From contig NZ_JAUTBJ010000002.1 of NCBI RefSeq assembly GCF_030819175.1, positions 2,676,001 through 2,740,000 of the forward strand: a DNA stretch of 64,000 bases. The letters run 5' to 3'. This document shows, piece after piece, positions 31,896-50,705 of this stretch. The translations under genes were made by a program, and so were the position numbers. The stretch comes from Sphingomonas sp. SORGH_AS_0879 (GTDB lineage: Bacteria; Pseudomonadota; Alphaproteobacteria; Sphingomonadales; Sphingomonadaceae). Under the pieces are notes generated by a model. It was not told the DNA's origin. It searched no databases and worked only from the letters and a program-made list of their open reading frames with translations. Numbering within the stretch: the first letter of the stretch is position 1; each line of letters opens with the position of its first letter.

Positions 31896-32263
31896 CGCGC
31901 ATCCGCCGTGGCGGAGGGCAGCGGACGCTCCACCGGTTCGCGCAGACTGGCCCGCACCAGCAGCGGCCAAAGCAGCAACAGCACGCTCGGCAGGAACAGG
32001 GTGACGCACAGGTCGTGCAGGGACGCAGCCATATCGCTTTCCGTGGCTCCGGCCGGGCGAGACATGTCAAGCGCCTCGTTGATCAGTTCGAAGATCAGGA
32101 CACCGAACCACGGCCAGCGCAGTGACGGGCGCCGCACCAGCAGATGGAACAGCACGAGCAGCAGCACGCCGACAAAGGCGTGAAGGGCATCCGGCGCAAT
32201 CCCGACGGCGCGCTCGATCCACAGGTTGAGCGACGTCCATGCGAAAGCAGCGTTGATGGTCAT
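31892..32263 (-). CDS. Small membrane protein, VanZ-like
   Basis: 123 residues with three or four hydrophobic segments (HAFVGVLLLVLFHLLV, RWPWFGVLIFELINEALDM, FLPSVLLLLWPLLV). The Glu/Asn/Glu cluster in FELINEALDM recalls VanZ-like proteins, often found in polysaccharide loci. Function unknown. It overlaps heparinase and flippase genes on both sides, so it belongs to the operon. Confidence 0.6.
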   Translation of the reverse strand: MTINAAFAWTSLNLWIERAVGIAPDALHAFVGVLLLVLFHLLVRRPSLRWPWFGVLIFELINEALDMSRPAGATESDMAASLHDLCVTLFLPSVLLLLWPLLVRASLREPVERPLPSATADAR

Positions 32264-34047: not shown

Positions 34048-35411
34048 CGGAAACCGGCCTTGTCGATCAATGGAAGGAAGCCCGCCCGAAACCGAGGGAT
34101 GGACTGGCCCATCATGGGCAGTGACGGCGCAGGCTTGGTAAGGAAGCCGGCCAGCATCGCGGCCAGCAACTGGATCGCGAGAATCCGCGTCGGATAATCA
34201 ACCAGCGAATGGAGCAGCAGGACCAGCAATCCGGCTGCCGACGCCCAGGCCAGCCGCCTGGCATCCCGGCCAAGCCGGGAAATGGCGATGCAGCGCCTGA
34301 GCGCCCAGACAACGGCAAGCAGCAGCAGCAGCATGGCTGGCAAACCGCCTTCGAGCATCAGTTCGAGATATTCATTATGCGCGTGATTGACGTAATGCAG
34401 CCCCACATGATCAAGCGGTTCGACCGACCGAAAGATGGTCTCGAATGTGCCGAAGCCGGACCCGACCGGCCAAGAGCGCGTGATCGCCGTCCAGCTATCG
34501 CCCCAGAAGCGGAAACGCTCGAGATTGCCGCTGTGCAACCGCTCGACCACCCGCGCGATGACCGTATTATGCCGTGCCAGCGATACCGCAGCGATCACCG
34601 CCACGCCCGACAACGGCACCATCCACCACCAGCGGACGAGCCACTGGCGCAGCAACACCGGCAACAGCGCGATCGGCAGCAATACCAACCCGGCGCGCGA
34701 CGTGGTGGCGATCACTCCCGCCCCAAGCGCCACCGCCAGCGATAGCGGCAGAAACGCACCCATCGAACGCGATCGCGGCAAAGCGCCGGTCAGAGCGGTC
34801 GCGACCAGCAGGAACGCCGCCTGATGATTGCGATTGGCGAACAGGCCGGTGGCATAGCCGACATGGCCTTCGGGATAGATGGTCCCCCATGCTCCGGCCG
34901 CCACAAGCTGCACCACGGCCAGCATCAGACTGGCCAGCGCGCAACCGATCGCGATGCAGGCAAGCAGGGTCCGCTGCCGCAGGTCCATATGGATGACCAG
35001 CGTCAGCATCGCGGCGGCGGGCAGCAATGCGGCCAACGAGCGTCGCGTCGCCGCGGGATCGAGGCTGATCGGGTAGGCTCGATCACTCAATCCCACGCGA
35101 TCGGCGATGACGGCGGCCAGCGACCGCCCCGGCAGAGCGCGCCAACAACCGGGATTCAAAGGCACGAGTTGCACGACGATCAGCACCGCGACGAGCATCA
35201 GCAGCACCAGAGGCAGGGCAGCCCCCGGCGAACGCGATGGCAATGGCCGCAGCACGAGCGATGCCAGTATCGTCAGTGCCACCGCCTCGATGGCCAGTTC
35301 CGCGACAGGGTGGCCGCTGCCCCCACCACCGAACAGCAGCGCGAAGACCAGGAGCACCGCCGCGCGCAGGACGAGTTGACTGCTACCGGTCGAACGGTCG
35401 TGGGACGTCAA
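34044..35411 (-). CDS. O-antigen ligase/polymerase-like membrane protein
   Basis: 455 residues with about 11-12 helices and the Wzy_C/WaaL-type periplasmic segment NHAHNEYLELMLEGGLPAMLL. It also has ATGLFANRNHQAAFLL, typical of O-antigen ligase-related EPS proteins. The start is probably TTG at 35411, overlapping the upstream stop (TTGA); no ATG fits in front of the first helix. It is a second polymerase/ligase-type protein beside the Wzy-like gene at 40.6 kb and may attach or terminate chains. Confidence 0.8.
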   Translation of the reverse strand: MTSHDRSTGSSQLVLRAAVLLVFALLFGGGGSGHPVAELAIEAVALTILASLVLRPLPSRSPGAALPLVLLMLVAVLIVVQLVPLNPGCWRALPGRSLAAVIADRVGLSDRAYPISLDPAATRRSLAALLPAAAMLTLVIHMDLRQRTLLACIAIGCALASLMLAVVQLVAAGAWGTIYPEGHVGYATGLFANRNHQAAFLLVATALTGALPRSRSMGAFLPLSLAVALGAGVIATTSRAGLVLLPIALLPVLLRQWLVRWWWMVPLSGVAVIAAVSLARHNTVIARVVERLHSGNLERFRFWGDSWTAITRSWPVGSGFGTFETIFRSVEPLDHVGLHYVNHAHNEYLELMLEGGLPAMLLLLLAVVWALRRCIAISRLGRDARRLAWASAAGLLVLLLHSLVDYPTRILAIQLLAAMLAGFLTKPAPSLPMMGQSIPRFRAGFLPLIDKAGFR

Positions 35412-36544
35412 CGCCCAGCCCCCCCGACCGGCGTGATCGTGATACGGTCGAAGCGCGCCTCGCTGTATGACGGACCATCGGCACGCCGCGCTTCCAGCGC
35501 CACGATCTGCGTCGTGCAGCCGTCCGCCGGCACCGCGAAATCCTCGCGCCAGCCAAACGTCTCCGGTGCCCCCGCCATCGCCACCATGGTGCCGCCGGGC
35601 AGGCACCGCAGCGTCCAGCGGAGCACGCCAAGTCCCATCACCTGATGGGATGGGGTGACAGTGATCAAGCGATAGCGCCCCGGCCCAAGCACCAGTTGCT
35701 GAAACAGCAGCGCGCCGAAAGCCGATCGGTCGACACCGACAACGAGCGAACGGCCCCCTGCCCCCGAGACCAGGCGCATGTCCGCGCCCGGCTGGCGCCG
35801 CGTGGTCCATTCGAACGGCACGATCCGGTCCGCCGTCCTGTCCAGACGAAGCCGTTCGAAATCCGGATCGAGCACCGCCCCCTGCTCCGCCCCGGTCAAC
35901 CGCAGCCAGAAGTTGCGCGCACGCGCCGCCTCCCCCGTCGCGGCCAGGGCCTGGACATAGGGTACCAGTTCGCCTGTCCGATCGAGCTGTCCCTGCCGTG
36001 CCAACACCTCGAGCAGGGCCTCGTGCGCATCGCGCAAAGCGGGCGGGATCGCGTCGATCCGCTGGAAGAAGGCGGTGCGCCATGCCGGCCGGGCCTTCAG
36101 ATGCAGCAGCAGGGCGGTTCGCCCGGTCCCGTCCACCGCGGCCGCGTGCAGCGCCGGAAGCAAGGCAGGTTCGAGCGCGGGCCTGCGCCGCAGCAGCGCA
36201 TCGACGTGGCGCATCGCCGCTCCATCGTCGCCGCGTCGGATCGCGGCGTCGATCAACAGTCGCTGCGTCTCCCTGTCTCGCCAGCCCAGTCTGCCGCTCA
36301 ATTCGGCCAGCGCGTCGGCCGAGTCCCCGTGCCCGGTCGCGCGTTCGGCGAGCGCAAGGTCCCGCAGCGCCGCCTGGTCATAGAGCGAGACCGCCAGCCG
36401 CTGCCGTGGGTCCGTGCGATCGGACAGCAAGCGCAAGGTCTGAACGAGGATCAGCACCGCCCCCGCCATCACCGTCAGCAAGATCGCAACGCGCAACGGA
36501 TCGGCGCGAAAGGCGCGCAGCGATCGCATCATCGACGCCACCAT
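35408..36544 (-). CDS. Membrane-anchored protein of unknown function in the EPS operon
   Basis: 378 residues: one N-terminal membrane helix (VAILLTVMAGAVLILVQTL), then a helical repeat region resembling TPRs (about 50-200, with many Ala/Leu/Arg pairs). A C-terminal beta-rich part follows (GRSLVVGVDRSAFGALLFQQ onward, to about 375) that could be a carbohydrate-binding-like sandwich. It overlaps wzc by 16 bases and the ligase-like gene by four. I do not recognise a named family. A scaffold for the export machinery is a guess. Confidence 0.65.
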   Translation of the reverse strand: MVASMMRSLRAFRADPLRVAILLTVMAGAVLILVQTLRLLSDRTDPRQRLAVSLYDQAALRDLALAERATGHGDSADALAELSGRLGWRDRETQRLLIDAAIRRGDDGAAMRHVDALLRRRPALEPALLPALHAAAVDGTGRTALLLHLKARPAWRTAFFQRIDAIPPALRDAHEALLEVLARQGQLDRTGELVPYVQALAATGEAARARNFWLRLTGAEQGAVLDPDFERLRLDRTADRIVPFEWTTRRQPGADMRLVSGAGGRSLVVGVDRSAFGALLFQQLVLGPGRYRLITVTPSHQVMGLGVLRWTLRCLPGGTMVAMAGAPETFGWREDFAVPADGCTTQIVALEARRADGPSYSEARFDRITITPVGGAGR

Positions 36545-38742
36545 CGCTTGCGAGGGGCGTCGTCATGGCTGTAATTATAATAGGCATAGCCATAGCCATA
36601 GCCGAACGCCTGCACCTCGACCCGGTTTAGGATGATGCCGCGCAGGGCCGCGCGGCTCAGGCGCAGGCGGCGGAGAGCAGCGCGGATGGTGCGGCGGTTG
36701 ACCTTGCTGCTATCCACTACGAATAGCGTGGCATCGACATGGGCGGCGATGCTGGGCGCATCGGCCAGCCCCAGCACGGGGGGACCATCGAACAGCACAA
36801 GGTCGTATTGTTCCTCAAACTGTCCAACCAGCCAGGGCAGCGTGCCCATCGCCAGCAACTCGGCCGGGTTGGCCGCTGATCCGCCGGTCGCGATGAATGT
36901 CAGGTTGAGGATCGTCGTGGGGTGCACGACATCGGCGATCTCCGCCTCGCGCCGGAGCAGGTCGACCAGTCCGTTCCGGTTTTCCAGCCCGAAGAGCTTG
37001 TGCATCGAAGGGCGGCGCATATCGGCATCGATCAGCAGCACCCGGCGACCGGTCTGCGCGAAATCCCGTGCCAGGGCATAGGCGATGCTGGTTTTGCCCT
37101 CGCCCTTGCCGCAACTGGTGACGAAGGTCGTCCGTGGGGGCCCGGCACTGTCCGACAATTCGACGGTGGAGCGGATCGCGTGGATCGCTTCGCTCAAGGG
37201 CGAATGGGGCCTTTCCAGTTCCTCACGGAACACCAGCCCGGCCTCCAGTCGCGGTACCATGCCCAGACCGGTGATGCCGAGCTTGCGTTCTGTCTGTTCG
37301 ACGGAACCCACGGCATCATCCAGATTCTCACGCAGATAGACAAAGCCGAGCGCGACGATCAGCGATCCCAGCAGCGCCAACCCGAGATTGACGCCCAGTT
37401 GCGGCGCGACCGGTCGGCCGGGCGTCGATGCAGCGTCGACGATCGCGATGTTGTTGGACGATACGCCCGCCGCCGTGCTCACCTGTCGGAACCGCTGGAG
37501 CAGGTCGTCATAGAGTTCGCGGTTGGTGCGAACCTCGCGCCGCAGGATCGTGTAGCGGATCGAGCGATCCTGTTCGGTCAGCGTCGCACCCTTCAGCCGA
37601 TCCACCTCCGCCTGCATCTGCCGTTCCTGCAGTTCGGCGGTCAGGAAGCGGTTGCGGATCGAGTCGCGGATATTCGCCGCGAGCCCTGCCAATCGCTGGT
37701 CGAGCGCGGCGATCTGTCCGCGCAGGCGGATCAGGTCGGGATGATCGCTCTGCCGGCGCTGACTCTGCTCGGCATAGCTCGCATCCAGTTCGGCGCGCCG
37801 TTCCATCATGGTCTGCACGACAGGATTGGACAGCACGTCGGGCAGGTTCATCACCGGAGCCGCCTGGGCATTGCGCCAGAACTGTTCGGCATCGATCCGC
37901 CTTGCCCGTGCCTGCGACAAGGCGTCGTTGGCCTCGACCAGGCTCGCCCCGATGAGCGACGGGGTGCTGTTCGTCTGCTGGTTCGCCGATTTGATCGCGT
38001 CGGTATCGATGATGCCGGTCGAACGAGCATAGGCCACCATGCTCCGTTCGGATTCCTCCAGACGCTCCTTCGCCTGCTGAAGCTGCTCACGCAGGAATTG
38101 CCGGGCATAGCCTGACGTGTCGAACCGGCGGGACAGGTTGCTGGCGATCATCGCATCGGCAAAGGCGTTGGCGATCTTTGCGGCCAGGGCGGGATCGGGG
38201 CTGTCGAACGTCACCCTGGCGATGCGAGACCCATCTGGCAGCGTCACGTTCAAATGCTCGCGCAAGGTCGCCAGAACCCGTTCGCGCAGCGCAACTTCGG
38301 CATCCGCCTGCCCCGGCGCGCTGCCTTTCCACTTGACGCGCATGGCGTCTAGAAACGCCCTGTCCTTGAACAGGCCCAGCGTCTCGGCAACGCGGATCGC
38401 CAGCGTGCGGCTGCGCAGGATTTCGGTCTGGGTCTGAAGGAAGCGGTCCGCGTCCTGCACCGCCTGCACCGGCTCGACATCGGGCGCGTCGAGCACGCGC
38501 GACGCCTGCTGGTCGATCTGCAGGCTGGCTTCGGCACGATAGGTCGGCGTGGTGAGCAACGTCACGCTCAACCCCAGCAAAAGTCCTGCGCAGCAGATCG
38601 CCACGACGAACCAGCGGTTGCGCATCAGGGCCAGCCGCACGCCCTCCAGATCGATCTGCGTGCCGGAGAAGAGCCAGGACTCTTCCATGGCCGGATCGCT
38701 GCGGGCCGCAGTGGCCGGGGTAGCCTTTGAAAATGTGGGCAT
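36529..38742 (-). CDS. Wzc/GumC-type polysaccharide co-polymerase with tyrosine autokinase
   Basis: 737 residues. The N-terminal Wzz domain with its first helix (WFVVAICCAGLLLGLSVTLL) is followed by a long periplasmic coiled coil and a second helix near 445. The cytoplasmic BY-kinase has Walker A (SCGKGEGKTSIAYALA), A' (LLIDADMRRP), Walker B (DLVLFDGPPV) and a C-terminal Tyr cluster (FGYGYGYAYYNYSHDD). Cycles of tyrosine phosphorylation control chain length and export with Wza. It follows wza by 54 bases. Confidence 0.92.
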   Translation of the reverse strand: MPTFSKATPATAARSDPAMEESWLFSGTQIDLEGVRLALMRNRWFVVAICCAGLLLGLSVTLLTTPTYRAEASLQIDQQASRVLDAPDVEPVQAVQDADRFLQTQTEILRSRTLAIRVAETLGLFKDRAFLDAMRVKWKGSAPGQADAEVALRERVLATLREHLNVTLPDGSRIARVTFDSPDPALAAKIANAFADAMIASNLSRRFDTSGYARQFLREQLQQAKERLEESERSMVAYARSTGIIDTDAIKSANQQTNSTPSLIGASLVEANDALSQARARRIDAEQFWRNAQAAPVMNLPDVLSNPVVQTMMERRAELDASYAEQSQRRQSDHPDLIRLRGQIAALDQRLAGLAANIRDSIRNRFLTAELQERQMQAEVDRLKGATLTEQDRSIRYTILRREVRTNRELYDDLLQRFRQVSTAAGVSSNNIAIVDAASTPGRPVAPQLGVNLGLALLGSLIVALGFVYLRENLDDAVGSVEQTERKLGITGLGMVPRLEAGLVFREELERPHSPLSEAIHAIRSTVELSDSAGPPRTTFVTSCGKGEGKTSIAYALARDFAQTGRRVLLIDADMRRPSMHKLFGLENRNGLVDLLRREAEIADVVHPTTILNLTFIATGGSAANPAELLAMGTLPWLVGQFEEQYDLVLFDGPPVLGLADAPSIAAHVDATLFVVDSSKVNRRTIRAALRRLRLSRAALRGIILNRVEVQAFGYGYGYAYYNYSHDDAPRKRWWRR

Positions 38743-38796
38743 CAGTAACAGATCCGATCAGGGTCCGATCGGCACAGGCGCGTGGCCGTGCCGCGC

Positions 38797-39546
38797 TTAT
38801 CGAAAGGGTCGAAAGACTGCGACCAGCGGCGCGGTGCTCAACACATCGCGCCATGCGGCCTTGAGTGCGGAAAACCCGACCACCACCGTGTCGCCGGGCT
38901 GCATTTCCGGATCAGGCATTTCGCCCCGGCGGATCTTGCCGACATCGAACACCGCGCCCATCGGCTGGCCGTCGATCGTCCGCAATATGACGACCTCTCC
39001 CAATGCCGATACGCGCGTCGTTCCCTCCGCCATGGCGATCGCGCCCAGCAGGCTGGTCTTGCCCTGCAACGGGTAGATGCCCGGCTTGTTGACGGCGCCC
39101 TCGACAACCAGCTTCAGCGACGCGGCGGTCGTCAGGTTGACCGCCACATCGGGATTGATGAGCATGTGCTGTCCCAGCCGGTCGGCGATCGCGCGAGCAA
39201 GTCCGTCGGTCGTCAGGCCACTTGCCTTTACCTGCCCGATCAGCGGCAACGAGATGTTGCCGCCACTGGTGATCTGCACCTCCTTCAGGCTCAGATCGGG
39301 TTCGTTAAGCACCGTCAGGCTGATGACATCGGCAGCGCCGAGCACATATTCCCGGTCGGCCTCCGGCGCGACCACCGGTATCACCCGATAGGCCGCACCG
39401 TCGCGGGGCATGTCGGGGCGGGCGCAGCCGCTCAACAGCGCCAACATCGCGCCGCATCCCAGCGGAAGCGCCGACGCGACAGCGCGAGCAAGGGCGATGA
39501 TGCGGGGCGATTGCCGCCGCCCGGCATCAAACGGGGTGACTACCAT
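38797..39546 (-). CDS. Polysaccharide export lipoprotein, Wza/GumB-like
   Basis: 249 residues: lipobox LLSGCARP (Cys about residue 41), PES domain with YVLGAADVISLTVLNEPDLS and a SLBB domain (VEGAVNKPGIYPLQGKTSLL). It forms the outer-membrane export channel working with Wzc. The start overlaps the acyltransferase stop region by 20 bases. Confidence 0.92.
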   Translation of the reverse strand: MVVTPFDAGRRQSPRIIALARAVASALPLGCGAMLALLSGCARPDMPRDGAAYRVIPVVAPEADREYVLGAADVISLTVLNEPDLSLKEVQITSGGNISLPLIGQVKASGLTTDGLARAIADRLGQHMLINPDVAVNLTTAASLKLVVEGAVNKPGIYPLQGKTSLLGAIAMAEGTTRVSALGEVVILRTIDGQPMGAVFDVGKIRRGEMPDPEMQPGDTVVVGFSALKAAWRDVLSTAPLVAVFRPFR

Positions 39547-40606
39547 AACGTTTCCTAAGAGGGCCCAGTCGCTGCGTCGTGACCGAATAGGCCAATGTCG
39601 AAACGGCTGCAGTGAGGACGAGGGACAGGAGCGCCCGTGGAAAGGGCGCGGGAAGGAAATGCCCCACGACGAAATAGATCGGGAAATGCCAGAGATAGAG
39701 TTCGTAGCTGATCCGGCCGAGGTAGCGGACGGTCGGCCACTCGGCGATCCGACGCGCCCATAGCGTTCGCTCAGGAAAGATCAGCCCGCAGAAAGCCACG
39801 CCGATCGCGATACTCTGCGGCGTATATTTGAACGCGACCTCATACCAATCGGCCCAGTGGACCAGCGACGCGATCATGGCGGCCGACCCGCCCCACAGCA
39901 GCCAATAGGCACGTCGTTCGAAGCACGAGACGCGCAGCACACCGGCATCGAGGAGCAGCGTCAAAAACACGCCCCAGCCGATCGCGTCGATCCGGGTCAG
40001 GGTGAAGTTGTAGTTGATGTTGTCGGCCTGCTGCGGTGCCATCCATGAGACGGCCATGCGCAACGCCAGCGCTCCACTCAGTATCGCAGCCAGCAGGATG
40101 ATCCGGCTTGTCCCCCTTCGCACGAACAGCAACACCGGCGGCAGGAGCAGGTAGAAATGCTCCTCGACCGCCAGGCTCCAGAGCGGCTCCAGCGCGTCAT
40201 AACCAGCATCCCATCCCAATAGTCGCGCACCGATCTTCTGGACATTGCCGAGATAGGCGAAGGACAGGAGCAGTTGTGACCAGGAAAAACCGGCAGGATC
40301 GATCCACACGAGCAGCGGAACGGCGACCACGCCCATCAAAAGCAGCGGCGGCAACAGCCGGATGAGCCGTCGGATATAGAACCGGCCGAGCGCGATCCGA
40401 CCATGGGTCTTTTCCTCGGCCAACAGCAGGCGCGAGATCAGGAAACCGCTGATGAAGAAGAAGATCGAGACGCCAAATCCGCCCGGAACATTCGGCAGCA
40501 GACGGTAATGTGCGACGATGACGATCGCGACGGCGAGCAACCGGAGCCCATCCAGACCGGCGACATAACCGAAGCGCGCCGTCGCGCTGGTGGATACACC
40601 GCTCAT
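39527..40606 (-). CDS. Acyltransferase family 3 membrane protein
   Basis: 359 residues from the ATG at 40606. It opens GYVAGLDGLRLLAVAIVIVAHY (family motif with the essential His), then GVSIFFFISGFLISRLL, an Arg-rich loop FYIRRLIRLLPPLLL, and EPLWSLAVEEHFYLLLP. About ten helices. Likely O-acetylates or otherwise acylates the EPS repeat unit. Its ATG overlaps the Wzy-like stop (ATGA). Confidence 0.9.
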   Translation of the reverse strand: MSGVSTSATARFGYVAGLDGLRLLAVAIVIVAHYRLLPNVPGGFGVSIFFFISGFLISRLLLAEEKTHGRIALGRFYIRRLIRLLPPLLLMGVVAVPLLVWIDPAGFSWSQLLLSFAYLGNVQKIGARLLGWDAGYDALEPLWSLAVEEHFYLLLPPVLLFVRRGTSRIILLAAILSGALALRMAVSWMAPQQADNINYNFTLTRIDAIGWGVFLTLLLDAGVLRVSCFERRAYWLLWGGSAAMIASLVHWADWYEVAFKYTPQSIAIGVAFCGLIFPERTLWARRIAEWPTVRYLGRISYELYLWHFPIYFVVGHFLPAPFPRALLSLVLTAAVSTLAYSVTTQRLGPLRKRYGSHPV

Positions 40607-41922
40607 GCCACACCGCCTTGCCGGGCCGGAGCGATCCAGAAACCGGGGTTCAGCGCCAGCCCGATCAGCAGCCAGAAGGGCGGATAGGCCGCCGGAAAGC
40701 TCTGCACCCACGTCATGAACATCATCGCGAGGCAGAGTGGCCGAAACGATATGCCCGACAGGGCGACCGTGCGGAACAGGAGCACCGCGAATGCCAGGCC
40801 GACCAGGCCGTACTCCAGGAACAGCACCGGAAAATAGGCCAGCGGCGATCCGTTGAAGCTCAGCGGAACGCTGGTCGCGTAATAACCGGTCAGCCCGAAG
40901 AAGGTGTCGAGGTCGTGCCGCGCATAGATCGCCCCCCCCAGCTTGAGGAATGCGCCCGCCCCATAGCCGAGCCCATGCGAGTCCATCATGCCGAGGATGC
41001 CGACGGCATTCTGAACGATGCGATAGGACAATGTCGTGTCCAACAAGCCCATTGGGGAGCGCAGCGTCAACAAGATCAGGTCAACGCCACGAATGCCCGT
41101 TTCGGGAATGGTACCGATCAGGAACAATGCGGCCAGGACCGTAAGCCCAACGACTAGATAGCGCGGCCACAGGCTCCCCCGCCCCGCCGTGCGCTGGGTG
41201 AGATACCATAGTCCGCCCAGCACCATCACCGCAAAGAAGCCCGAGCCGGATTGGGACAGCAGCACGTTCAACAGCGCAAGGCCCACAGGCCAGACCGGCA
41301 CTACCGCTCCCTCGCGCGACAGCGCCTTGCGCGTTACCAACGTCAGCAACAGCATGAACGCCATGGTAAAGCCGAAATCGGTGGCTTCCGGTGCCAGGCT
41401 GGTGGCGCCGCGTCCTCCGAGGATGCCGCTAGCGGTCGGAACCAGCGGGCGCGTGACGGCCAGATAAGCCCCCTTGCTGACAAATCCCAGCAGCGCGAAC
41501 ATGGTCCACAACGGCAAGGTTAACGCCAGCACCCGCCACAACAAGGACGGCGACACATAGGTGGCGGCGACCAGGATCGCCCAGCAGATGACGAAACTGG
41601 CCGAGCGGCGGAGATAATAGTCGAGGCCAACCGAGCCGGGTTCGGAAACATAGAGCATGAACCACAAGGCGAAGCACAGCACGAGCAGGTGGAATCCGGT
41701 GACGCGCAACGTCGCGGTCAAAAGCCGGTGCACGAGGAACGCCCAGCACAGCAGCGCTGCCCAGGGCTGCACCTGCGATGGCGCGGCGATGGGCCCAAAG
41801 ACGAGATAGGGCAGGCAGCACAGCACCAGCGCCGCCGCGAGCGTCATCCGCGCCAGCATATCGGGCGCCGCCACCGACATGACCGCACGTCCGTCCCAGG
41901 CCGCCCCCATGGCTTGCGACAT
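40603..41922 (-). CDS. O-antigen/EPS polymerase (Wzy-like)
   Basis: 439 residues with about 11 helices, starting at the ATG that shares one base with the upstream stop (TGATG). It has the low-similarity character of Wzy proteins. The large loop DSHGLGYGAGAFLKLGGAIY before the last helices matches the periplasmic loop of EPS polymerases. Function by topology and context. Confidence 0.72.
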   Translation of the reverse strand: MSQAMGAAWDGRAVMSVAAPDMLARMTLAAALVLCCLPYLVFGPIAAPSQVQPWAALLCWAFLVHRLLTATLRVTGFHLLVLCFALWFMLYVSEPGSVGLDYYLRRSASFVICWAILVAATYVSPSLLWRVLALTLPLWTMFALLGFVSKGAYLAVTRPLVPTASGILGGRGATSLAPEATDFGFTMAFMLLLTLVTRKALSREGAVVPVWPVGLALLNVLLSQSGSGFFAVMVLGGLWYLTQRTAGRGSLWPRYLVVGLTVLAALFLIGTIPETGIRGVDLILLTLRSPMGLLDTTLSYRIVQNAVGILGMMDSHGLGYGAGAFLKLGGAIYARHDLDTFFGLTGYYATSVPLSFNGSPLAYFPVLFLEYGLVGLAFAVLLFRTVALSGISFRPLCLAMMFMTWVQSFPAAYPPFWLLIGLALNPGFWIAPARQGGVA

Positions 41923-43262
41923 CAACCCGCGATCCCCGCACCGGACAGGGTCGGCGCTACCGCCGTCACTTCCTGGCGCAGGCTGTCGTAAAATGCCTCT
42001 TCGAGCTTGAGGAAATGGGCTTCCCACGTCCAGTGCCTCGCGACGAAGGCGCGCGCGGCGGCCCCCAGCGCCATCGCCTGGTCCGGATCGGACAGCAGCG
42101 CGATTACGGCTGCGGCAAAGCCATCGGCATCGTCGGCGATGCGCAGCGTATCGTCCGGCGCCATGATGCCCTCGTTCGCGATCGAGGTGGCCACCGTCGC
42201 CTTGGCACAGGCCATATATTCGATCAGCTTGTTCTGCATGCCGCCGGCTGCACGCATCGGATTGATGCAGACCGTTGCCGAACGGATGAAATGCCCCACG
42301 TCCTGCACCGTACCGGTGACGGTGATCCCATTGCGACCGTCGAGATCGCGAATGGCCGCGGTCGGATCGCGCCCCTGGATGATCAGCGTGGCGCCAGGAA
42401 CAGCAGTGCGCACGATCGGCCAGCACTGATCGACGAACCACAGCACCGCCTGAACATTGGGCTGATAGAGCATGGACCCGGAGAAGACGATCCGACCGGC
42501 AACCACCTCCGCGGCCATCGCCGGGCGATACCGGGTCAGGTCGGTGCCGTGTGCGCCATAAACCCAATTGTCGATCGGGCGCTGCTTCTGCGCTATACAA
42601 ACAGCCTCGACCGTGGCGACGTCGGCGGGGCCGATCAGCACCGCTCGATTGAAGCGCTGCCAAATGCGCGCCTCATAGCGTTCGCACAGCGCCGTTTCGA
42701 TGCGATACAGGAGTCGCTTGATGGCATGACGCTCATTCTCGAATATGCGTCGGGAATTGAGCGACTGCGACAATTGCATCGCCAAGAACGAGACGGGCGC
42801 ACGCGCATCCTCCGGGCGACCGACACGGGTCAGCGCATGGGGCACCGCATGCGCACTCCGGATATAATAGCAGTAGACGACGTCATACTCGCCCGCCTGC
42901 ACCCTCGCCTTCACTTCCCGCGTCAGTGAGCGGTTGCGAAACATGGCGACCTGCACCGGCTCGCGGCGGAACAGCCCCTCGATCAGCCCGCGCGCCATCT
43001 GACCGATCCCGTGCGAATGAATGCGGACATGGCGGCACGCGCGGTTCAGCCAGTCCCGCTGGACCCGCGAGACCTCGCCATGCTTCGCCAGCGTGTAGAA
43101 ATCGACCTGATGCCCCCTTGCAGCAAGGAAACTGAGGAGATGCGCGACGGTCAGTTGATCGCCGCGCATCATGGGAAAGGGCAACCGGCTATAGACGACC
43201 GCCACGCGCAACGGCCGGTCGCTCGGCAGACAGTCCATGACCTTTGGAAGTGCGTCGACCAT
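41922..43262 (-). CDS. Family 4-type glycosyltransferase (GT-B)
   Basis: 446 residues from the ATG at 43262 (a GTG three bases earlier is in frame). It opens LRVAVVYSRLPFPMMRGDQL, then an acceptor domain, and a C-terminal donor domain with IVFSGSMLYQPNVQAVLWFV and NPMRAAGGMQNKLIEYMACA, ending in a helix typical of this clade. It is similar in style to sugar transferases linked to EpsH/exosortase-type EPS loci. It overlaps the dehydrogenase stop (TGATG). Confidence 0.85.
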   Translation of the reverse strand: MVDALPKVMDCLPSDRPLRVAVVYSRLPFPMMRGDQLTVAHLLSFLAARGHQVDFYTLAKHGEVSRVQRDWLNRACRHVRIHSHGIGQMARGLIEGLFRREPVQVAMFRNRSLTREVKARVQAGEYDVVYCYYIRSAHAVPHALTRVGRPEDARAPVSFLAMQLSQSLNSRRIFENERHAIKRLLYRIETALCERYEARIWQRFNRAVLIGPADVATVEAVCIAQKQRPIDNWVYGAHGTDLTRYRPAMAAEVVAGRIVFSGSMLYQPNVQAVLWFVDQCWPIVRTAVPGATLIIQGRDPTAAIRDLDGRNGITVTGTVQDVGHFIRSATVCINPMRAAGGMQNKLIEYMACAKATVATSIANEGIMAPDDTLRIADDADGFAAAVIALLSDPDQAMALGAAARAFVARHWTWEAHFLKLEEAFYDSLRQEVTAVAPTLSGAGIAG

Positions 43263-44527
43263 CACGGCAGCCGGTTGGTGCTAACATGCTTGCGCGCATT
43301 GACCTTCAGGTCGGCGATCAGCCCGACCGTATCGATGGCGAGATCCCAATCCTCTGTTTCCGCGACGTCGCGGGGAACGAACAGGCTGTTGAGCGCAGGG
43401 ATCTGGCTATAGGCATAGCCCAGATTCTGCCCGATCAGCTTCGCGGGGACCACCACGGGGTCATAGACCGAAAGCTGGTAGCCAGCCTCCAGCAGCTTGC
43501 GTGCAAGGTCGACATTGGCGCTCTCGCGCAGATCGTCGCTTTCCGCCTTGAACGACAGCCCGGCGAGCAGAACCTTGCCGCCTGGACGGACATGTTCCTG
43601 CACATATTCGAACAGGAAATATTTGTGGCTTTCGTTCGACCGGATGATGGAATCGATCATCGCGGTATGCGATCCGACATCCGCCGCGATATATTGCAGT
43701 GCGCGCACATCCTTGGGGAGGCAGGAACCGCCGAACGCGCCGCCGGGTCGGGTATAATAGGGCGAGATGTTCAGCTTGGTGTCCGACACGAAGATTTCGT
43801 GGACCTTGCGCGCGCTGATGCCGAGTTTGACGGCGGTGCGACCGACTTCGTTGGCGAAGGTCACCTTGACCGCGTGCCAGGTATTATCGACGAACTTGGT
43901 GAATTCGGCTTCCCGGAACCGCGTCACGAACAGGGGCGCGTCGATCCCCTGGTACAACGCCGTCATATTGGCCGAGGGCTTCCCGTCGACGGTACCGATG
44001 ACGATCTTGGGCGGGTGGAAATAATCCTCGATCGCGGTCGCTTCGCGCAGGAATTCGGGATTGTAGACCAGCTCGACGGCGTCGTTCAGCCGGTCGCCCA
44101 GTTCGGCCTCGAAGATGGGGCTGATCAACGTATCGAGCGTTCCGGGGCGGATCGTCGAGCGATACACGACGGTCAGCGGACTCGGGCGGTTCGACGTGAC
44201 GGCGCTGGCGATCTGGCGGCTGACCTCGCTGATATAGGTCATATTGTGCGATCCGTCGGGGCCGCTCGGCGTACCGACGCAGACGATGGCCATGTCGCAT
44301 TCGTTGATGACGCCGGCCGCGCTTTGGGAATAGCTGAGAAGGCCGTCTTCCCGCCCCTTGCGGAGCAGTTCATGCAGTCCCGGTTCGGTGATCGGGCATC
44401 CGCCCGCATTGAGTTCGGCAACCTTGGCCTCGTTGACCTCGATACCGCTCACCTTGTGGCCATCCCTGGCGAGACAAGCCGTCGCCGTGAGGCCGACATA
44501 GCCCAGACCGAAAACAGCAATGTGCAT
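43262..44527 (-). CDS. GDP-mannose/UDP-glucose 6-dehydrogenase family, AlgD-like
   Basis: 421 residues: Rossmann start MHIAVFGLGYVGLTATACLA, the Glu loop ITEPGLHELL, the catalytic Lys region FVDNTWHAVKVTFANEVG and the catalytic Cys in GGAFGGSCLPKDVRAL. The 'VDNTWHAVKV' and 'FGGSCLPKDVRAL' forms favour GDP-mannose dehydrogenase (AlgD-like) over UDP-glucose dehydrogenase. It would supply a uronic-acid donor for the EPS, consistent with the lyase in the operon. A substrate test is needed to choose between the two. Confidence 0.85.
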   Translation of the reverse strand: MHIAVFGLGYVGLTATACLARDGHKVSGIEVNEAKVAELNAGGCPITEPGLHELLRKGREDGLLSYSQSAAGVINECDMAIVCVGTPSGPDGSHNMTYISEVSRQIASAVTSNRPSPLTVVYRSTIRPGTLDTLISPIFEAELGDRLNDAVELVYNPEFLREATAIEDYFHPPKIVIGTVDGKPSANMTALYQGIDAPLFVTRFREAEFTKFVDNTWHAVKVTFANEVGRTAVKLGISARKVHEIFVSDTKLNISPYYTRPGGAFGGSCLPKDVRALQYIAADVGSHTAMIDSIIRSNESHKYFLFEYVQEHVRPGGKVLLAGLSFKAESDDLRESANVDLARKLLEAGYQLSVYDPVVVPAKLIGQNLGYAYSQIPALNSLFVPRDVAETEDWDLAIDTVGLIADLKVNARKHVSTNRLP

Positions 44528-44600
44528 TACAAGAAACCCCTGCTCGTGATTGGCGCGCGAAAGCTTGCCCGGTGCGCCGGGCGGGCGTTGAAGGAGGCGG

Positions 44601-46016
44601 TCAGAAGACCGATCGGCCGGCTAGAGCCATGACGGTGCGGAAGACGATCTTGATGTCTTTCCCCAGCGACCAGTCGCGAAGATATTCGAGGTCTGCGTCG
44701 AGCCGGTTCTGGAGATCCGCGTCGACGAAGGTGGTGCCTCGGAAGCCGCGGACTTGCGCCAGTCCGGTCATGCCGGGTTTGACGGCATGGCGGTGCCAAT
44801 AAGCGGTGTCGACTTCCCAATAGAGCTTGTCGCCAGCCTTCGCGCCCAGCGCATGAGGCCGGGGTCCGACGATACTCATGTCCCCGCGCAGCACGTCGAT
44901 CAGCTGCGGCAGTTCGTCGATGCTGGTGGATCGGATGATCCGGCCAATCCGCGTCACGCGATCGTCGCTGCGCCCCTGGGTCAGCCGGCTGCCGGAAAGA
45001 TCCTGCGTATCGACACGCATGCTGCGAAACTTGTGCATCCGAAACTGTCGGTTACCCCGACCGATGCGCGGCTGACGGAACAACGCCGGGCCGGGACTGT
45101 CGAGCCGGATCGCCAGCGCTGTGAACAGCAGGAACGGGGTCAGCAGAAGCAGGCCGGTCCCAGCCACCACGATGTCGAACAGCCGCTTGGTGATGCGGTC
45201 GCTGAACGACAGCGGTTCGCCCGCCACCTTCAGCGTCGCCTGTCCATGGAAGCTGCCCGCGCCGATGGGAGCCAGCGACGCGACTTCCTCGACCAGCAGT
45301 TCCACCGGGACATTGGCGCCGCGCAATGCAGCCGCCCAGGCGGCGCGACGATCCTGCGGGCAGGAAACGACCAGCCGGTCGGCCCTGCCTGCCAGCGCGC
45401 CGAGCCGCTCCAGAACGTCGGGATCATGAACATCGGCGCGCAGACCGTGCCGGACGGCGTCGATCACCAAACCGTCCATCGGGGTGAACGGGCTTGCATC
45501 GCCATCGACGAGCAGGATCGTGCGGTGCCGCCCCGATCGTTCACTCCACCAGGCAGACCCTAACATCAGCGCCAGCGCGGTACGCGCCACGCCCAAAGTG
45601 CAGGCTAGGCCGGTCAGGGAGGGGAGCAAAGCCGAGGACACGTGGTCGATCGACCGCCCCTCCAGCATTGCGAAGGTCCCCACGGCGCAGAAGGTGATGA
45701 GCAGCGCAAGCCACGCCCGCTGCGTGCTACGTACTGCGTCGGCGGCGATCGCGGGCGAATAAGCGGCTCCATAGACCGCGACGGCGAAGTAGATGGCGCC
45801 CAGTATCCACAGTAGATGCGGATGGACCGCCCCGCCAATCGTTGCGGACAGGCTGAAAACCGCAAGGAAGGCGATGGCATCCGCCAGGCACAACTTTCCA
45901 CCCAGAAACACGAAGCGAATGGGCTTGGCGGATAACATGGCGCCGCCCCATCCCGGCGCGTCGACAATCGCCGGTTCCTCTATATAGCCCATTGAACGTT
46001 GAGCCGAATTTAGCAC
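44601..46016 (-). CDS. Undecaprenyl-phosphate sugar phosphotransferase (priming enzyme)
   Basis: 471 residues. Several N-terminal helices are followed by a CoA-binding-like domain, then the bacterial sugar transferase domain from about residue 275: KRLFDIVVAGTGLLLL, KFRSMRVDTQDL, SIDELPQLIDVLRGDMSIVG, VKPGMTGLAQVRGF. It transfers the first sugar phosphate to undecaprenyl phosphate. A GTG at 46016 is preferred because GGGGAGGGG stands at ribosome-site distance. An ATG at 45992 lacks such a site. 73 bases precede the dehydrogenase gene. Confidence 0.9.
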   Translation of the reverse strand: MLNSAQRSMGYIEEPAIVDAPGWGGAMLSAKPIRFVFLGGKLCLADAIAFLAVFSLSATIGGAVHPHLLWILGAIYFAVAVYGAAYSPAIAADAVRSTQRAWLALLITFCAVGTFAMLEGRSIDHVSSALLPSLTGLACTLGVARTALALMLGSAWWSERSGRHRTILLVDGDASPFTPMDGLVIDAVRHGLRADVHDPDVLERLGALAGRADRLVVSCPQDRRAAWAAALRGANVPVELLVEEVASLAPIGAGSFHGQATLKVAGEPLSFSDRITKRLFDIVVAGTGLLLLTPFLLFTALAIRLDSPGPALFRQPRIGRGNRQFRMHKFRSMRVDTQDLSGSRLTQGRSDDRVTRIGRIIRSTSIDELPQLIDVLRGDMSIVGPRPHALGAKAGDKLYWEVDTAYWHRHAVKPGMTGLAQVRGFRGTTFVDADLQNRLDADLEYLRDWSLGKDIKIVFRTVMALAGRSVF

Positions 46017-46098: not shown

Positions 46099-46395
46099 TC
46101 ACGATGCCGGGCTGACCGGCCGATCATCGTCTCCGGCAGCAACCGCGATGATCGCGCCTGTCGCTGCCACACCCCCCAGGGCGGCAAGGAACAGCGTGTT
46201 GGTCAGCAGGCCACCGCCCGCCACACCGCTTGCCCCTGCAGCACTGCCTGCCCCCGCCGTGCCAGTCGCCCCGCCCGACTGCGCACCGACCTTGGCACCA
46301 ACGCGCGCCGCTTTCCTTGCCGTGGGCGGCGCGGCGGCTGCCAGCGAGATGATGGCGGACGCCGCGATCAACGATTTAGTGGCCAATACCAACAT
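46099..46395 (-). CDS. Small exported Ala/Gly-rich protein
   Basis: 98 residues, ATG at 46395 after AGGAATAGGT. A signal-like N-terminus (MLVLATKSLIAASAIISLAA) is followed by an Ala/Gly/Thr-rich stretch (SGGATGTAGAGSAAGASGVA), one hydrophobic segment (TLFLAALGGVAATGAIIAVA) and an acidic tail (GDDDRPVSPAS). It lies 82 bases upstream of the priming enzyme on the same strand and may be the first gene of the EPS transcript. No family recognised. Confidence 0.6.
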   Translation of the reverse strand: MLVLATKSLIAASAIISLAAAAPPTARKAARVGAKVGAQSGGATGTAGAGSAAGASGVAGGGLLTNTLFLAALGGVAATGAIIAVAAGDDDRPVSPAS

Positions 46396-46730: not shown

Positions 46731-48053
46731 TCATTGCCCGACCGCAAAACACAGGCTTGCCGGACGGCACCGGCTGGTCGGCCGGTCGAGGACTGCCAGC
46801 GAATGACGCCATGTTTGTCGCCAGGGCCGACAATAGGATGGCCGCCCCCAAAAATAGCCCTGCTGCCACAGCGCACCGGCATCCCGGGCAATTCGACTCT
46901 GCTCAGGCGTTTCCACGCCTTTCGCCACCACGATGGAACCCAGCGATGCCGCCAGCGCGGAGAGCCGCGCAAAGAGCAACTGGTCGCGTGAAGACGTGCC
47001 TGCCCGCCATAGGAAGATGCGATGCACCTTCACGATATTCGGTGCGAAGGCGAGCACCTGAGGGATCGAAGCGTGACCGGCCCCGAAATCGTCCATCACG
47101 ATCCGGCATCCCAGTCGGCGGAGCTGGTCGACCAACGCAATCGCACGCGAAATGTCTGGCACGGCAGCGGTCTCGGTAATCTCGATCAACAGTCGCCGGG
47201 TGACATTCGGTCGGGCGCACAGCCGCGCCATCACATCCGCCCACCAGGGATCGACACATAGGCTCAGCGCGGACAGCTTGACCGCCAGGCTCACCTCGTC
47301 CGGCGCCTGCTCCAGATCGGTCAGGACTTGTCGCACCATATGGCGGTCCAACAGACGCACCATCCCGGTCCGTTCGAGCGCCAATATCCAGTCATCGGCC
47401 GCAGAAAGTGCACCATCCCGGTCGAGCAGCCGCGCCAATGTCTCGAAATAGGCGACGCGCCCGTCTTCCACGTTAGACACTACTCGCCAGCACAACTGCA
47501 AATCGCCATCCGGATCATTGATGCCGGACGGTTCGAGCGTTGCCAGAACGCGCGACGCCAGCGCCATGTCCCTACGATACCGGGCACCCCAATCGCCTTG
47601 GCCGGGGGACGCACCGACAAAGGGAAAGCACCATTCTCCGAACTCTGCTCCGTCGCTTGCCAGACGCCAGCGCCCGGACAGCCAGAGATGGACGGGACCA
47701 GCGGCGGCTTCGAACGGAACGGTCGGCAAGGTTTCGCACACATCGCCGACCCATGCCTCACAGGCCGATCCATCGGGTTCGGCGCCAAGGGTGGGCAGCG
47801 AAAGGAGGCGGATTTCTATCAAATCGGCCGCGACCCGTTCGATCGAACCATCATTTCGCACGACCTGCGCCAGCCGATCGCATACCGCCGACACCACGGC
47901 ATCAGCCGTCGCGCTGCCATAAGCGGACAAAAGGTGCGGATAATTTCCGATACGGAACTGAAAATGCGCGGCGTAACGATCCGGCTGGATCGGCGAGCAT
48001 AGCGTGCCACAGGTGGTTGCCGACTGCCTCCCACTTTTTGCACGCAAAGACAT
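46731..48053 (-). CDS. Degenerate GGDEF-EAL protein, probable c-di-GMP-responsive regulator
   Basis: 440 residues from the ATG at 48053, which has GGGGG upstream; the frame is open to 48092. The N-terminal part keeps GGDEF-like structure (HFQFRIGNYPHLLSAYGSAT) but has ERVAADLIEIR where GGDEF should be. The EAL domain keeps ETLARL, LLIEITET, VMDDFGAGHASI and QGYFWGRP. It has lost key residues by eye: KLS for NLS, VKVHRIF for the K-x-D motif, and AKGVE for AEGVE. Catalysis is therefore unlikely, and a binding or protein-interaction role in EPS control is possible. The C-terminal tail after GRP is Arg-rich. Confidence 0.78.
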   Translation of the reverse strand: MSLRAKSGRQSATTCGTLCSPIQPDRYAAHFQFRIGNYPHLLSAYGSATADAVVSAVCDRLAQVVRNDGSIERVAADLIEIRLLSLPTLGAEPDGSACEAWVGDVCETLPTVPFEAAAGPVHLWLSGRWRLASDGAEFGEWCFPFVGASPGQGDWGARYRRDMALASRVLATLEPSGINDPDGDLQLCWRVVSNVEDGRVAYFETLARLLDRDGALSAADDWILALERTGMVRLLDRHMVRQVLTDLEQAPDEVSLAVKLSALSLCVDPWWADVMARLCARPNVTRRLLIEITETAAVPDISRAIALVDQLRRLGCRIVMDDFGAGHASIPQVLAFAPNIVKVHRIFLWRAGTSSRDQLLFARLSALAASLGSIVVAKGVETPEQSRIARDAGALWQQGYFWGRPSYCRPWRQTWRHSLAVLDRPTSRCRPASLCFAVGQ

Positions 48054-48099
48054 CGGCAACCCCCAGCTTGGCAGCGGTCGGGATCGAACCACTGAATCT

Positions 48100-48126
48100 G
48101 TTACCGTATATCCAAAAGTGTATCAG
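48100..48126 (+). repeat. Left inverted repeat of the recombinase segment
   Basis: Begins GTTAC and ends with the 18-base core TATCCAAAAGTGTATCAG (48109-48126). It lies between the EAL gene and the recombinase gene. Confidence 0.85.
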
Positions 48127-48206
48127 CCGCCCGGGAGAGACGTTATGGTAACGCAATGACTTTAACCTGTTCCTCGGAAAGCAGTCCTGCACAGGGAACG
48201 GAGACC

Positions 48207-49082
48207 ATGCCCGCGGCGATCTACAACCACTATGGCCAACGTAAGTATCTCACTTCTCAGGAAATAGATGCGTTCGTCCATACTGCCGGATCATGCAGCA
48301 CCGACATCAAGACATTCTGTTGCATGATGGCCTTTACCGGCTGCCGCATATCGGAAGCCTTGGCCATGACGAAGGACAGTATCGACTTCGAAGCGAAGCA
48401 CGTCGTCATCCGTTGCCTGAAGAAACGGGGGAAACGTGTATATCGAGCCGTACCGCTTCCCGCTTCCTATCTGAAAGCCCTAAAGCGTTGGTTTAAAACG
48501 CTTGAGGGGACGAATGATCGTCTGTGGCCTTGGTCGCGCATGACCGGATATCGCCGGATCTGCGAAGTCATGAGCGATGCGATGGTCCGGGGAAGCTATG
48601 CCAGTCCCAAGGGATTGCGCCACGGCTTTGGCGTGCGGGCGATCCAGGCAAGCGTACCGCTGACGTTGGTTCAGCGGTGGCTGGGACATGCGGACATCAA
48701 GACGACAGCCATCTATACCAGCGCTGTCGGTCCGGAGGAGCGGGAAATCGCGTCCCGCATGTGGCGCGAAGAGCGAGTTGCTCCGCCTTCCCCGCCCAGC
48801 AACTGCGAAGAGAGGCCCGATGGGTGGCAGGGCCTATTATCCCGCGCACGATCAATGCCGATCGTATTCACTTCAGATACCCCCCCGCAAACGCTTGATC
48901 CGACCGTATCTGCCGATACTCCGTCCCATAGTCACAAATGCCGGCACGCTCACAGCGGCGACGCTGAGGTCAATCCTGAGTCAGGTAACCAGGAAAGGTG
49001 GCCGAAACGATTAACAGCTTGCCTCCTGATACACTTTTGGATAAAGTGTAACCGATATTATCACTGTCAATCATTTACTTAG
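48207..49082 (+). CDS. Tyrosine recombinase/integrase
   Basis: 291 residues from the ATG at 48207 with GGGAACGGAG upstream. The catalytic core is compact (about 180 residues): Arg47 in TGCRISEAL, a Lys-rich beta-hairpin (LKKRGKRVYRAVPL), the box-II segment SPKGLRHGFGVRA, His161 in WLGHADIKTTAIYTSA, and nucleophile Tyr170. Box II has Lys where HxxR is usual, a variant I recall in other stand-alone proteobacterial integrases. The last 100 residues have no recognisable domain and run through the right inverted repeat to a stop at 49080. There is no N-terminal core-binding domain of normal length. Confidence 0.85.
   Translation: MPAAIYNHYGQRKYLTSQEIDAFVHTAGSCSTDIKTFCCMMAFTGCRISEALAMTKDSIDFEAKHVVIRCLKKRGKRVYRAVPLPASYLKALKRWFKTLEGTNDRLWPWSRMTGYRRICEVMSDAMVRGSYASPKGLRHGFGVRAIQASVPLTLVQRWLGHADIKTTAIYTSAVGPEEREIASRMWREERVAPPSPPSNCEERPDGWQGLLSRARSMPIVFTSDTPPQTLDPTVSADTPSHSHKCRHAHSGDAEVNPESGNQERWPKRLTACLLIHFWIKCNRYYHCQSFT
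49026..49052 (-). repeat. Right inverted repeat of the recombinase segment
   Basis: Inverse of the left copy, with identical 18-base core (49026-49043). On its inner strand the sequence GTTACAC...GTGTATC forms imperfect opposed arms about 11 bases apart, the general layout of a tyrosine recombinase binding site. It lies within the 3' end of the recombinase ORF. Confidence 0.85.
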
Positions 49083-49434: not shown

Positions 49435-49499
49435 TGACGTGACCCCCGTTTCTTCATCCAACTGGAAGTAGAGACCGTCTCCTTAAAGGGACGGACGGA

Positions 49500-49766
49500 A
49501 TGAAGCGGAAGCAGTTTTCGGAAGAGCAGATCATCGGCATCCTGAAGGAGGCCGAGGCGGGTGCGGTGGTGACGGAGCTGTGCCGCAAGCACGGGATGTC
49601 GAGCGCGACTTACTATGCGTGGAAGGCGAAGTTCGGCGGCCTGGAGGTGTCCGACGCAAAGCGCCTGCGGTCGCTCGAAGAGGAGAACGCCCGGCTCAAA
49701 CGGCTACTGGCGGACACGATGCTGGACAATGCGGGGTTGAAAGACCTGCTGTCAAAAAAGTGGTGA
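49500..49766 (+). CDS. IS3-family transposase OrfA
   Basis: 88 residues: [16 protein letters not shown] and [20 protein letters not shown] (helix-turn-helix), then the zipper helix [20 protein letters not shown]. The classic slippery heptamer A AAA AAG lies at 49754-49760, in phase, just before the stop. Confidence 0.93.
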
Positions 49767-50665
49767 CGCCCGCCGCGAAGCGGCAAGCGGTCGCGCATCT
49801 CCAGGCGACGCTGGGGATGAGCGAGCGGCGGGCATGCACGGTCGTTGGGGCAGACCGCACGAGCATGCGGTATCGCTCGTGCCGGGCGGATGATGGCGAC
49901 CTGCGGTCGCGGCTGCGCGAGCTGGCGCAGCAACGCCGACGGTTCGGCTATCGGCGTCTGCACATCCTGCTGCGCCGGGACGGCATCACGATCAACCGCA
50001 AGAAGACCCAGCGGCTCTATCGTGAGGAGGGTTTGACGGTCAGGCGCCGGAAGGGACGAAGGCGCGCCACAGGCAGCCGTGCGCCCGCGTCAGTGCTGGC
50101 GCTTCCCAACCAGCGCTGGAGTCTGGACTTCGTCCACGACCAGCTCGTGACCGGCCGTCGGTTCCGCGTGCTCAACATCGTCGATGACGTCACGCGCGAA
50201 TGCCTTCGGGCGGTGGTGGACACGTCGATCTCGGGCCGGCGGGTCGTGCGCGAGCTGGCCGATCTGATCGCCGAGCGTGGCAGGCCGAAGATGATCGTCA
50301 GCGACAACGGGACCGAACTGACGTCGAACGCGGTGCTCGCCTGGTCCGGCGATGCCCGCATCGAGTGGCATTACATCGCGCCGGGCAAGCCCACGCAGAA
50401 CGGGTTCGTCGAGAGCTTTAACGGTCGCATGCGCGACGAGCTGCTCAACGAGACGCTGTTCTTCACCATCGGTCAGGCCCGCTCGATTCTGGCCCGCTGG
50501 GTCGACGACTACAACAACGAGCGTCCGCACTCCTCGCTCGGCTACGCCACTCCGGCAGCCTTCGCTGCCGGGCTCGAACAGCAACGGGCGGGGTTAACCC
50601 CGCCCGTTGCTTCACCTGCGCTTATGCGCGAAAACCACGGTCGGTCTCTGGTTGCCGCTGGATGA
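49757..50665 (+). CDS. IS3-family transposase OrfB (made by -1 frameshift)
   Basis: About 302 residues in the -1 frame after the slippery site ([15 protein letters not shown]...). It has [16 protein letters not shown] and the DDE core: [13 protein letters not shown] with the first Asp, [12 protein letters not shown] with the second, and [18 protein letters not shown] with Glu. It appears complete, so the element may be mobile. The start coordinate reflects the frameshift, not a start codon. Confidence 0.9.
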
Positions 50666-50705
50666 AAGACCGGGGTCACGTCACGGGCTCCACAACTCCC
50701 GATCT

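Follow-up and report, generated by a model that had tools for sequence, protein, structure and literature searches.

A putative phase-variation cassette carrying its own tyrosine recombinase beside an EAL-domain gene in sphingomonads

The recombinase segment and its neighbours

The window, by which we mean the whole analysed stretch of 64,000 nucleotides from Sphingomonas sp. SORGH_AS_0879, contains the gene of a tyrosine recombinase (REC) enclosed by an inverted repeat (48096-48126 and 49026-49056), whose 31-nt arms are 87% complementary and are separated by a spacer of 899 nt. Both arms share an identical 18-bp stretch, CTGATACACTTTTGGATA, and an outer GTTAC; this arrangement had been described in a sequence-only reading of the window and was confirmed by the repeat search and by a Pfam match to Phage_integrase. 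The recombination sites, delimited within the inverted repeat by a site profile, are 26 bp long and lie at 48100-48125 on the minus strand (left, EAL-side site; crossover core 48109-48115) and at 49027-49052 on the plus strand (right site; core TTGGATA at 49037-49043), with scores of 34.9 and 34.8 bits. Each site is an imperfect dyad of the form GTTACA...TGTAAC, and the exact 17-mer TGATACACTTTTGGATA of the inner site occurs twice in the 4.3-Mb genome, in the two window arms only.

The REC gene is placed at 48207-49082 on the plus strand. Its open reading frame extends from 48156 to 49082 and runs in frame through the right site, and comparison with relatives makes the ATG at 48207 the probable start. 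The product is FimB/FimE-sized: the Phage_integrase match (4e-22, residues 30-189) begins at residue 30, so that the protein has the catalytic-domain-only layout of FimB and FimE, which comprises about 200 residues and lacks the N-terminal core-binding domain, with a longer C-terminal tail in the window REC. Under the curated NCBIfam cut-offs it stays below both PRK09871 (43.2 bits, cut-off 222) and PRK09870 (42.1 bits, cut-off 221), and Pfam gives Phage_integrase only, with no serine recombinase (Hin/Gin) domain. The residues R64, R155, H178 and Y187 are invariant in an alignment of 18 sequences; the frame of the window gene is open and its catalytic positions are the invariant ones. Box II of the window protein (48599-48629, residues 149-158) reads KxxR (PKGLRH) and that of locus L073 reads RxxR, the histidine of HxxR, the box II motif of tyrosine recombinases, being replaced.

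The EAL-domain gene, presumed to be the switched gene, lies at 46731-48053 on the minus strand (Pfam EAL, 5.8e-47) and reads away from the cassette. Its ATG at 48053 is 47 bases from the left site, a distance that the sequence-only reading had given and that the coordinates confirm; of the GGDEF-EAL protein assumed in that reading the EAL part stands, whereas Pfam finds no GGDEF domain. The motif table shows that the protein has lost catalytic and metal-binding residues of active EAL phosphodiesterases (N to K, KID to KVH and AEG to AKG), which makes it catalytically degenerate. Therefore, control via c-di-GMP breakdown is doubtful at the window locus.

Downstream of the EAL gene, exopolysaccharide (EPS) genes identified by Pfam extend over 30657-46016 on the minus strand and comprise sugar transferase, UDP-sugar dehydrogenase, glycosyltransferase and acyltransferase genes and Wza-, Wzz-, Wzy-, heparinase- and Wzx-like genes. 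The gap after the EAL gene measures 715 bp in the window (to the EPS genes) and 13 bp in L005, a paralogous locus of the same genome, so that co-transcription is likely in some loci; the switch might control the window EPS operon. The gap in the window harbors an ORF of 98 aa (46099-46395, minus strand) with hydrophobic, Gly/Ala-rich stretches.

On the EAL-distal flank, 16 nt outside the site, lies the putative IHF-binding motif AATCATTTACTTA (49069-49081, plus strand), which resembles the IHF consensus. Beyond this flank, an IS3-like element with two overlapping ORFs is recognized by eye at 49440-50690.

Recurrence of the cassette, its sites and its neighbours

The genome of the window strain has three REC paralogues, which are 70-71% identical over about 440 nt. 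Two of them (L005 and L006) lie between sites and are divergent from an EAL gene, which is followed by a TpsB-type transporter gene. In L006 (4703-5262) the conserved REC parts are split over two frames and both sites are still present; in L007 (about 4916-5711) REC is also split over two frames, with no sites and no EAL match nearby.

REC relatives with E values of 1e-30 or better were found in at least 9 of 151 genus genomes and in at least 19 of 397 family genomes, the own genome included in both counts. Scanning of named genomes confirmed 464 loci, of which the best 80 were retained. The site scan covered 98 loci with 107 REC genes after 15 named loci duplicating other regions had been removed; L162, a further duplicate of L080, remained in it among the loci without sites. 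Both sites scored above 13 bits at 40 loci, of which 38 are sphingomonad-type, with 728-940 bp between the sites, and L126 and L157, which are not, were left out of the 38. Some of these loci are closely related to one another (the end of the segment that bears the TTG discussed below has 28 distinct 12-mers), so the loci cannot be counted as independent events.

The 7-bp core is identical within the pair at all 38 loci despite ten core types, and random pairing of cores gave a mean of 8.0 matches and a maximum of 17 in 5000. Each end was located independently with the site profile, which had been built from 26 of the 38 pairs, most of them first found through mutual similarity; at the 12 loci outside the profile set the core is likewise identical within the pair (12/12). 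The recurrence of the sites and the agreement of their cores show that the repeat arrangement goes beyond chance. Among the remaining REC genes, seven have paired repeats with at least 20 of 26 matches (maximum in 201 shuffles, 19), L109 being the one sphingomonad; L126 and L157 bring the non-sphingomonad cases to eight. The IHF-like motif is found at offset 16 in 27 of the 38 distal flanks, allowing up to two mismatches. Best matches with at most one mismatch occur on 15/38 distal flanks and 0/38 EAL sides (shuffles, 7.7% and 1.1%), and the first 30 nt of the flank are AT-rich distally (29% GC) as against 63% GC on the EAL side, the side having been set by base composition for the 6 loci without an EAL match.

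An EAL match lies within 2.5 kb of the cassette at 32 of the 38 loci, and REC and EAL co-diverge (Mantel rho 0.63, p 0.001, 31 loci). At the loci without an EAL match the corresponding side bears a gene for a winged-helix protein (L076), a winged-helix gene below the Pfam cut-off together with usher genes (L071), Hint and glycosyltransferase genes (L107) or DUF2827 genes (L077, to which L103 is similar), and L096 is similar to the EAL-bearing L024. The EAL residues are intact at 23 of the 32 loci, degenerate at 8 (window included) and partly changed at L101. Since degenerate EAL proteins recur beside an open REC (also at L024, L025, L028, L029, L078, L110 and L111), a non-enzymatic EAL role is possible. 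EAL matches at 1e-60 or better number six in the 151 genus genomes, and REC stands beside four of them (three in the own genome, one in G004). The sequence-only reading had proposed a search for empty sites: a cassette-free EAL-TpsB locus without REC does exist (L169), yet it is without sites too. Another EAL locus without REC, L170, is on a 3.9-kb contig that stops at an apparent outer half-site, and elsewhere in its assembly only a distant REC-like match (29% identity) was found.

Surface-structure genes were recognized downstream of the EAL gene at 21 of the 32 EAL loci, the ORFs checked being those of all loci but L023, L029, L085 and L111. They are EPS genes at five loci (window, L025, L066, L069, L083), TpsB genes at ten (with a TpsA domain in L065), usher/chaperone genes at three (L075, L078, L101), CsgG-like genes at two (L063, L088) and a YadA-like gene at one (L110); among the ORFs checked at L024, L026, L027, L028, L086, L100 and L102 (7/32) there are none. 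L023 has TpsB on the far flank. Beyond the set of 38, EAL and an SCPU chaperone-usher cluster adjoin REC on an annotated plasmid of S. parapaucimobilis. REC relatives were also seen on plasmids of acetic acid bacteria, Komagataeibacter accounting for 10 of 33 plasmid records, and 5 loci are on viral contigs.

Orientation of the segment in related genomes

Comparison of related loci revealed the segment in both orientations. In genus g86 (Sphingosinicella, to judge from its named copies) it is inverted in L064, L072 and L074 relative to L073, with flanks colinear at 84-89% identity; the comparison of L067 with L073 agrees with inversion, and here just short pieces of the far flank can be matched (77-81%). 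L024 (Sphingomonas sp. ATCC 31555) and L096 (S. pokkalii) have opposite orientations and flanks of 92% and 76-77% identity, L096 having been assigned to the OFF form (see below) from flank similarity. Between L063 and L085 (Sphingobium indicum BiD32) the segment is inverted and 78% identical, and the flanks, 3 kb each, are 93% and 95% identical. L063 is labelled Sphingosinicella and L085 Sphingobium, and flanks of 93-95% around a segment of 78% could reflect transfer, a wrong label or replacement of the segment. The inner half-sites travel with the segment in L063/L085 and in L064/L073, and the outer half-sites remain with the flanks, which places strand exchange in the core.

Sphingobium faniae CGMCC 1.7749 has the same 902-bp segment (902/902) on two contigs, both of which end at the core of the remaining site. 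The REC-5' end of the segment joins the EAL flank on one contig and the other flank on the second. In G548 the same two flanks (2098/2098 and 3029/3030 nt identical) enclose the segment at a single locus, and the segment, identical to that of S. faniae, is in the co-directional orientation. S. faniae therefore has junctions of both the divergent and the co-directional form, and G548 that of the co-directional one. The two-junction pattern could also arise if S. faniae had two identical copies, but the difference from G548 would then be unexplained. Of the smaller S. faniae contig, the initial 1.9 kb have no match in the compared G548 stretch.

The orientation is equal within the pairs L065/L068, L066/L069, L028/L029, L077/L103, L110/L111 and Novosphingobium ST904/RL4, which counts against frequent switching, and the window copy has one orientation in the assembly. 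That cassettes of the window type invert is strongly supported by this comparison of relatives with breaks at the sites, and the window copy itself would be expected to do so. The sequence-only reading had suggested that the segment may invert and that related genomes be searched for either orientation; the suggestion holds for this kind of cassette, and both orientations were found, even between the practically identical S. faniae and G548. The window locus thus has the inverted sites around a short segment and the site-specific recombinase of an inversion switch, and its relatives (S. faniae/G548 and three further sets) have the segment in both orientations.

The proposed switch, its alternatives and known systems

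At the REC-3' end of the segment a TTG precedes the site's TA at a distance of 17 bp in 38/38 loci, and at the other end in 0/38; for the loci outside the profile set the counts are 12/12 and 0/12. The TTG is also seen by eye in L095, L109, L173 and L174, later finds that stand outside the count, and in non-sphingomonad REC loci with paired repeats it is present in 2/8 (L122, L126) and absent in most. The REC frame runs through the right site at 22/38 loci, stops just before it at 2 and ends at least 37 nt upstream at 14; a coding explanation of the TTG was rejected because the TTG is kept in these 14. In the window the putative -35, TTGCCT (49019-49024, plus strand), now faces away from the EAL gene. 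The putative -10, TATACG (48105-48110, minus strand), is located by the crossover core on the EAL side and would sit 17 bp after TTGCCT upon inversion of the segment. The pattern CTTGC-N17-(C/T)TA resembles CTTGAC-N17-CTATAT, the alphaproteobacterial promoter pattern. Because the TTG has this spacing at the REC-3' end only, inverting the segment probably puts together a split promoter directed at the EAL gene. The sequence-only reading had seen no promoter inside the segment, and a strict sigma-70 scan indeed gave 0 matches; the outward -35-like TTG conserved at one end is a candidate. In weighted promoter scoring the -35 end facing EAL had 25 wins, 5 ties and 3 losses (n=33), with the best match at the proposed position in 18/33. 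REC is divergent from EAL at 24 loci (window included) and co-directional at 8, and we infer that the divergent form is OFF, the co-directional form ON and the window copy in the OFF state.

We consider it likely that the segment is a self-contained phase-variation cassette, in which the internal REC flips the segment and a split promoter turns the EAL gene and surface genes ON or OFF. REC would recombine the two inverted sites within the 7-bp core, and about 0.9 kb would flip. The REC-3' end would provide the -35-like TTG, and the -10 would take its TA from the core and its remaining bases from the flank-bound half-site, so that the crossover would divide the promoter. In the divergent form, to which the window copy belongs, EAL would have no -35 facing it (OFF); inversion would bring the -35 end next to EAL (ON). 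The IHF-like site on the far flank probably aids synapsis or biases direction. Cells in the ON state would make the EAL (or another) regulator and, where the surface genes follow closely, would express these as well, and populations mixed for slime or adhesins would be the outcome. It also seems likely to us that such cassettes form a widespread sphingomonad family of autonomous inversion units that has relatives in other Alphaproteobacteria and is characterized by an internal tyrosine recombinase, a split promoter, help from IHF and interchangeable regulator and surface modules. These modules may be exopolysaccharide, two-partner secretion, usher pili, CsgG-like or trimeric autotransporter genes, and a genome can have several cassettes.

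It could be argued that the window cassette stems from a switching family but is decayed or locked, with no effect left in the window strain. We regard this as unlikely: the loss of catalytic residues from the window EAL protein, the single orientation in the assembly and the broken REC frame of the paralogous cassette L006 agree with decay, but the REC frame of the window is open and has the invariant residues at its catalytic positions, both window sites score high and degenerate EAL proteins recur beside open REC genes at other loci. It is rather improbable that the segment inverts and yet the TTG serves REC or an accessory protein as a contact point instead of being a -35, inversion then changing EAL by REC read-through or changing only REC. 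The TTG is found at one end only, with an exact 17-bp spacing to the TA, and loci whose REC stops upstream still have it, which speaks against such a contact, even though the negative strict scan and the 18/33 best weighted matches at the proposed place suit it. REC also runs through the right site at most of these loci, so inversion would alter its tail, in the way that ipuS inversion alters the tail of the recombinase IpuA in E. coli according to PMC6083910. A small tyrosine-recombinase transposon bounded by terminal inverted repeats, the main alternative of the sequence-only reading, was rejected as the main reading and is highly improbable, for the enclosed recombinase, the L063/L085 segment that is more diverged than its flanks, as if replaced, and the cassette-free L169 are outweighed by the constancy of the EAL neighbour, by REC-EAL co-divergence, by inversion in place and by the lack of a second copy in the genome, where, instead of the copies at unrelated loci that the reading had named as a transposon's mark, only the paralogues of about 70% identity occur, two of them adjoining EAL genes.

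The phase-variation cassette proposed here is like the E. coli fim-type switches (fimS with FimB/FimE, ipuS with IpuA/IpuB) in its tyrosine recombinase without an N-terminal domain, and IHF participates in the fim switch. According to PMC6083910, ipuS inversion similarly turns a promoter towards a regulator and surface genes (ipuR-upaE). Unlike in the cassette with REC wholly inside, the fim-type recombinases are outside the element (ipuS overlaps only the ipuA end), and the elements are about 0.3 kb or less with the promoter within them (PMC6083910). The cassette further differs from them in its 26-bp sites and in a -10 that would be completed by the flank. Hin is a serine recombinase that works with Fis and an enhancer; unlike Hin, REC is tyrosine-type, with a 7-bp core and an IHF-like flank motif. 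The cassette is like the Hin-type Salmonella segment, which PMC5903667 names as having the recombinase inside, in the internal position of this gene and in an outward promoter (only proposed for the cassette). A likeness to pdcB/pdcC of Clostridioides difficile, as described in PMC9286219, is inversion before the gene of an EAL protein (there with a degenerate GGDEF) with ON/OFF expression; the pdcB element differs in being 174 bp long, 840 bp upstream of pdcB and bounded by 19-bp repeats, with no recombinase gene inside and with its recombinase unidentified in that paper. By analogy, the cassette would combine the working mode of a fim-type switch with the layout of Hin and a target like that of C. 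difficile pdcB.

A survey (PMC5903667) reports inversion signatures in 0/4 Alphaproteobacteria. The cassette is not described in the open-licence papers on sphingomonad phase variation and invertible DNA that were searched, and an earlier description is possible. Inversion-type phase variation is known; the tyrosine recombinase inside its own segment is what differs. Sphingomonads include gum producers and pollutant degraders, and the cassette would provide them with a genetic means of switching slime and adhesins reversibly. As a portable unit with its own recombinase and a promoter that would be completed by recombination, it is directly testable and could be a genetic switch. A second REC gene without sites of its own is present near the cassette in L023, L066, L069, L071, L078 and L101, which recalls the fimB/fimE pairs.
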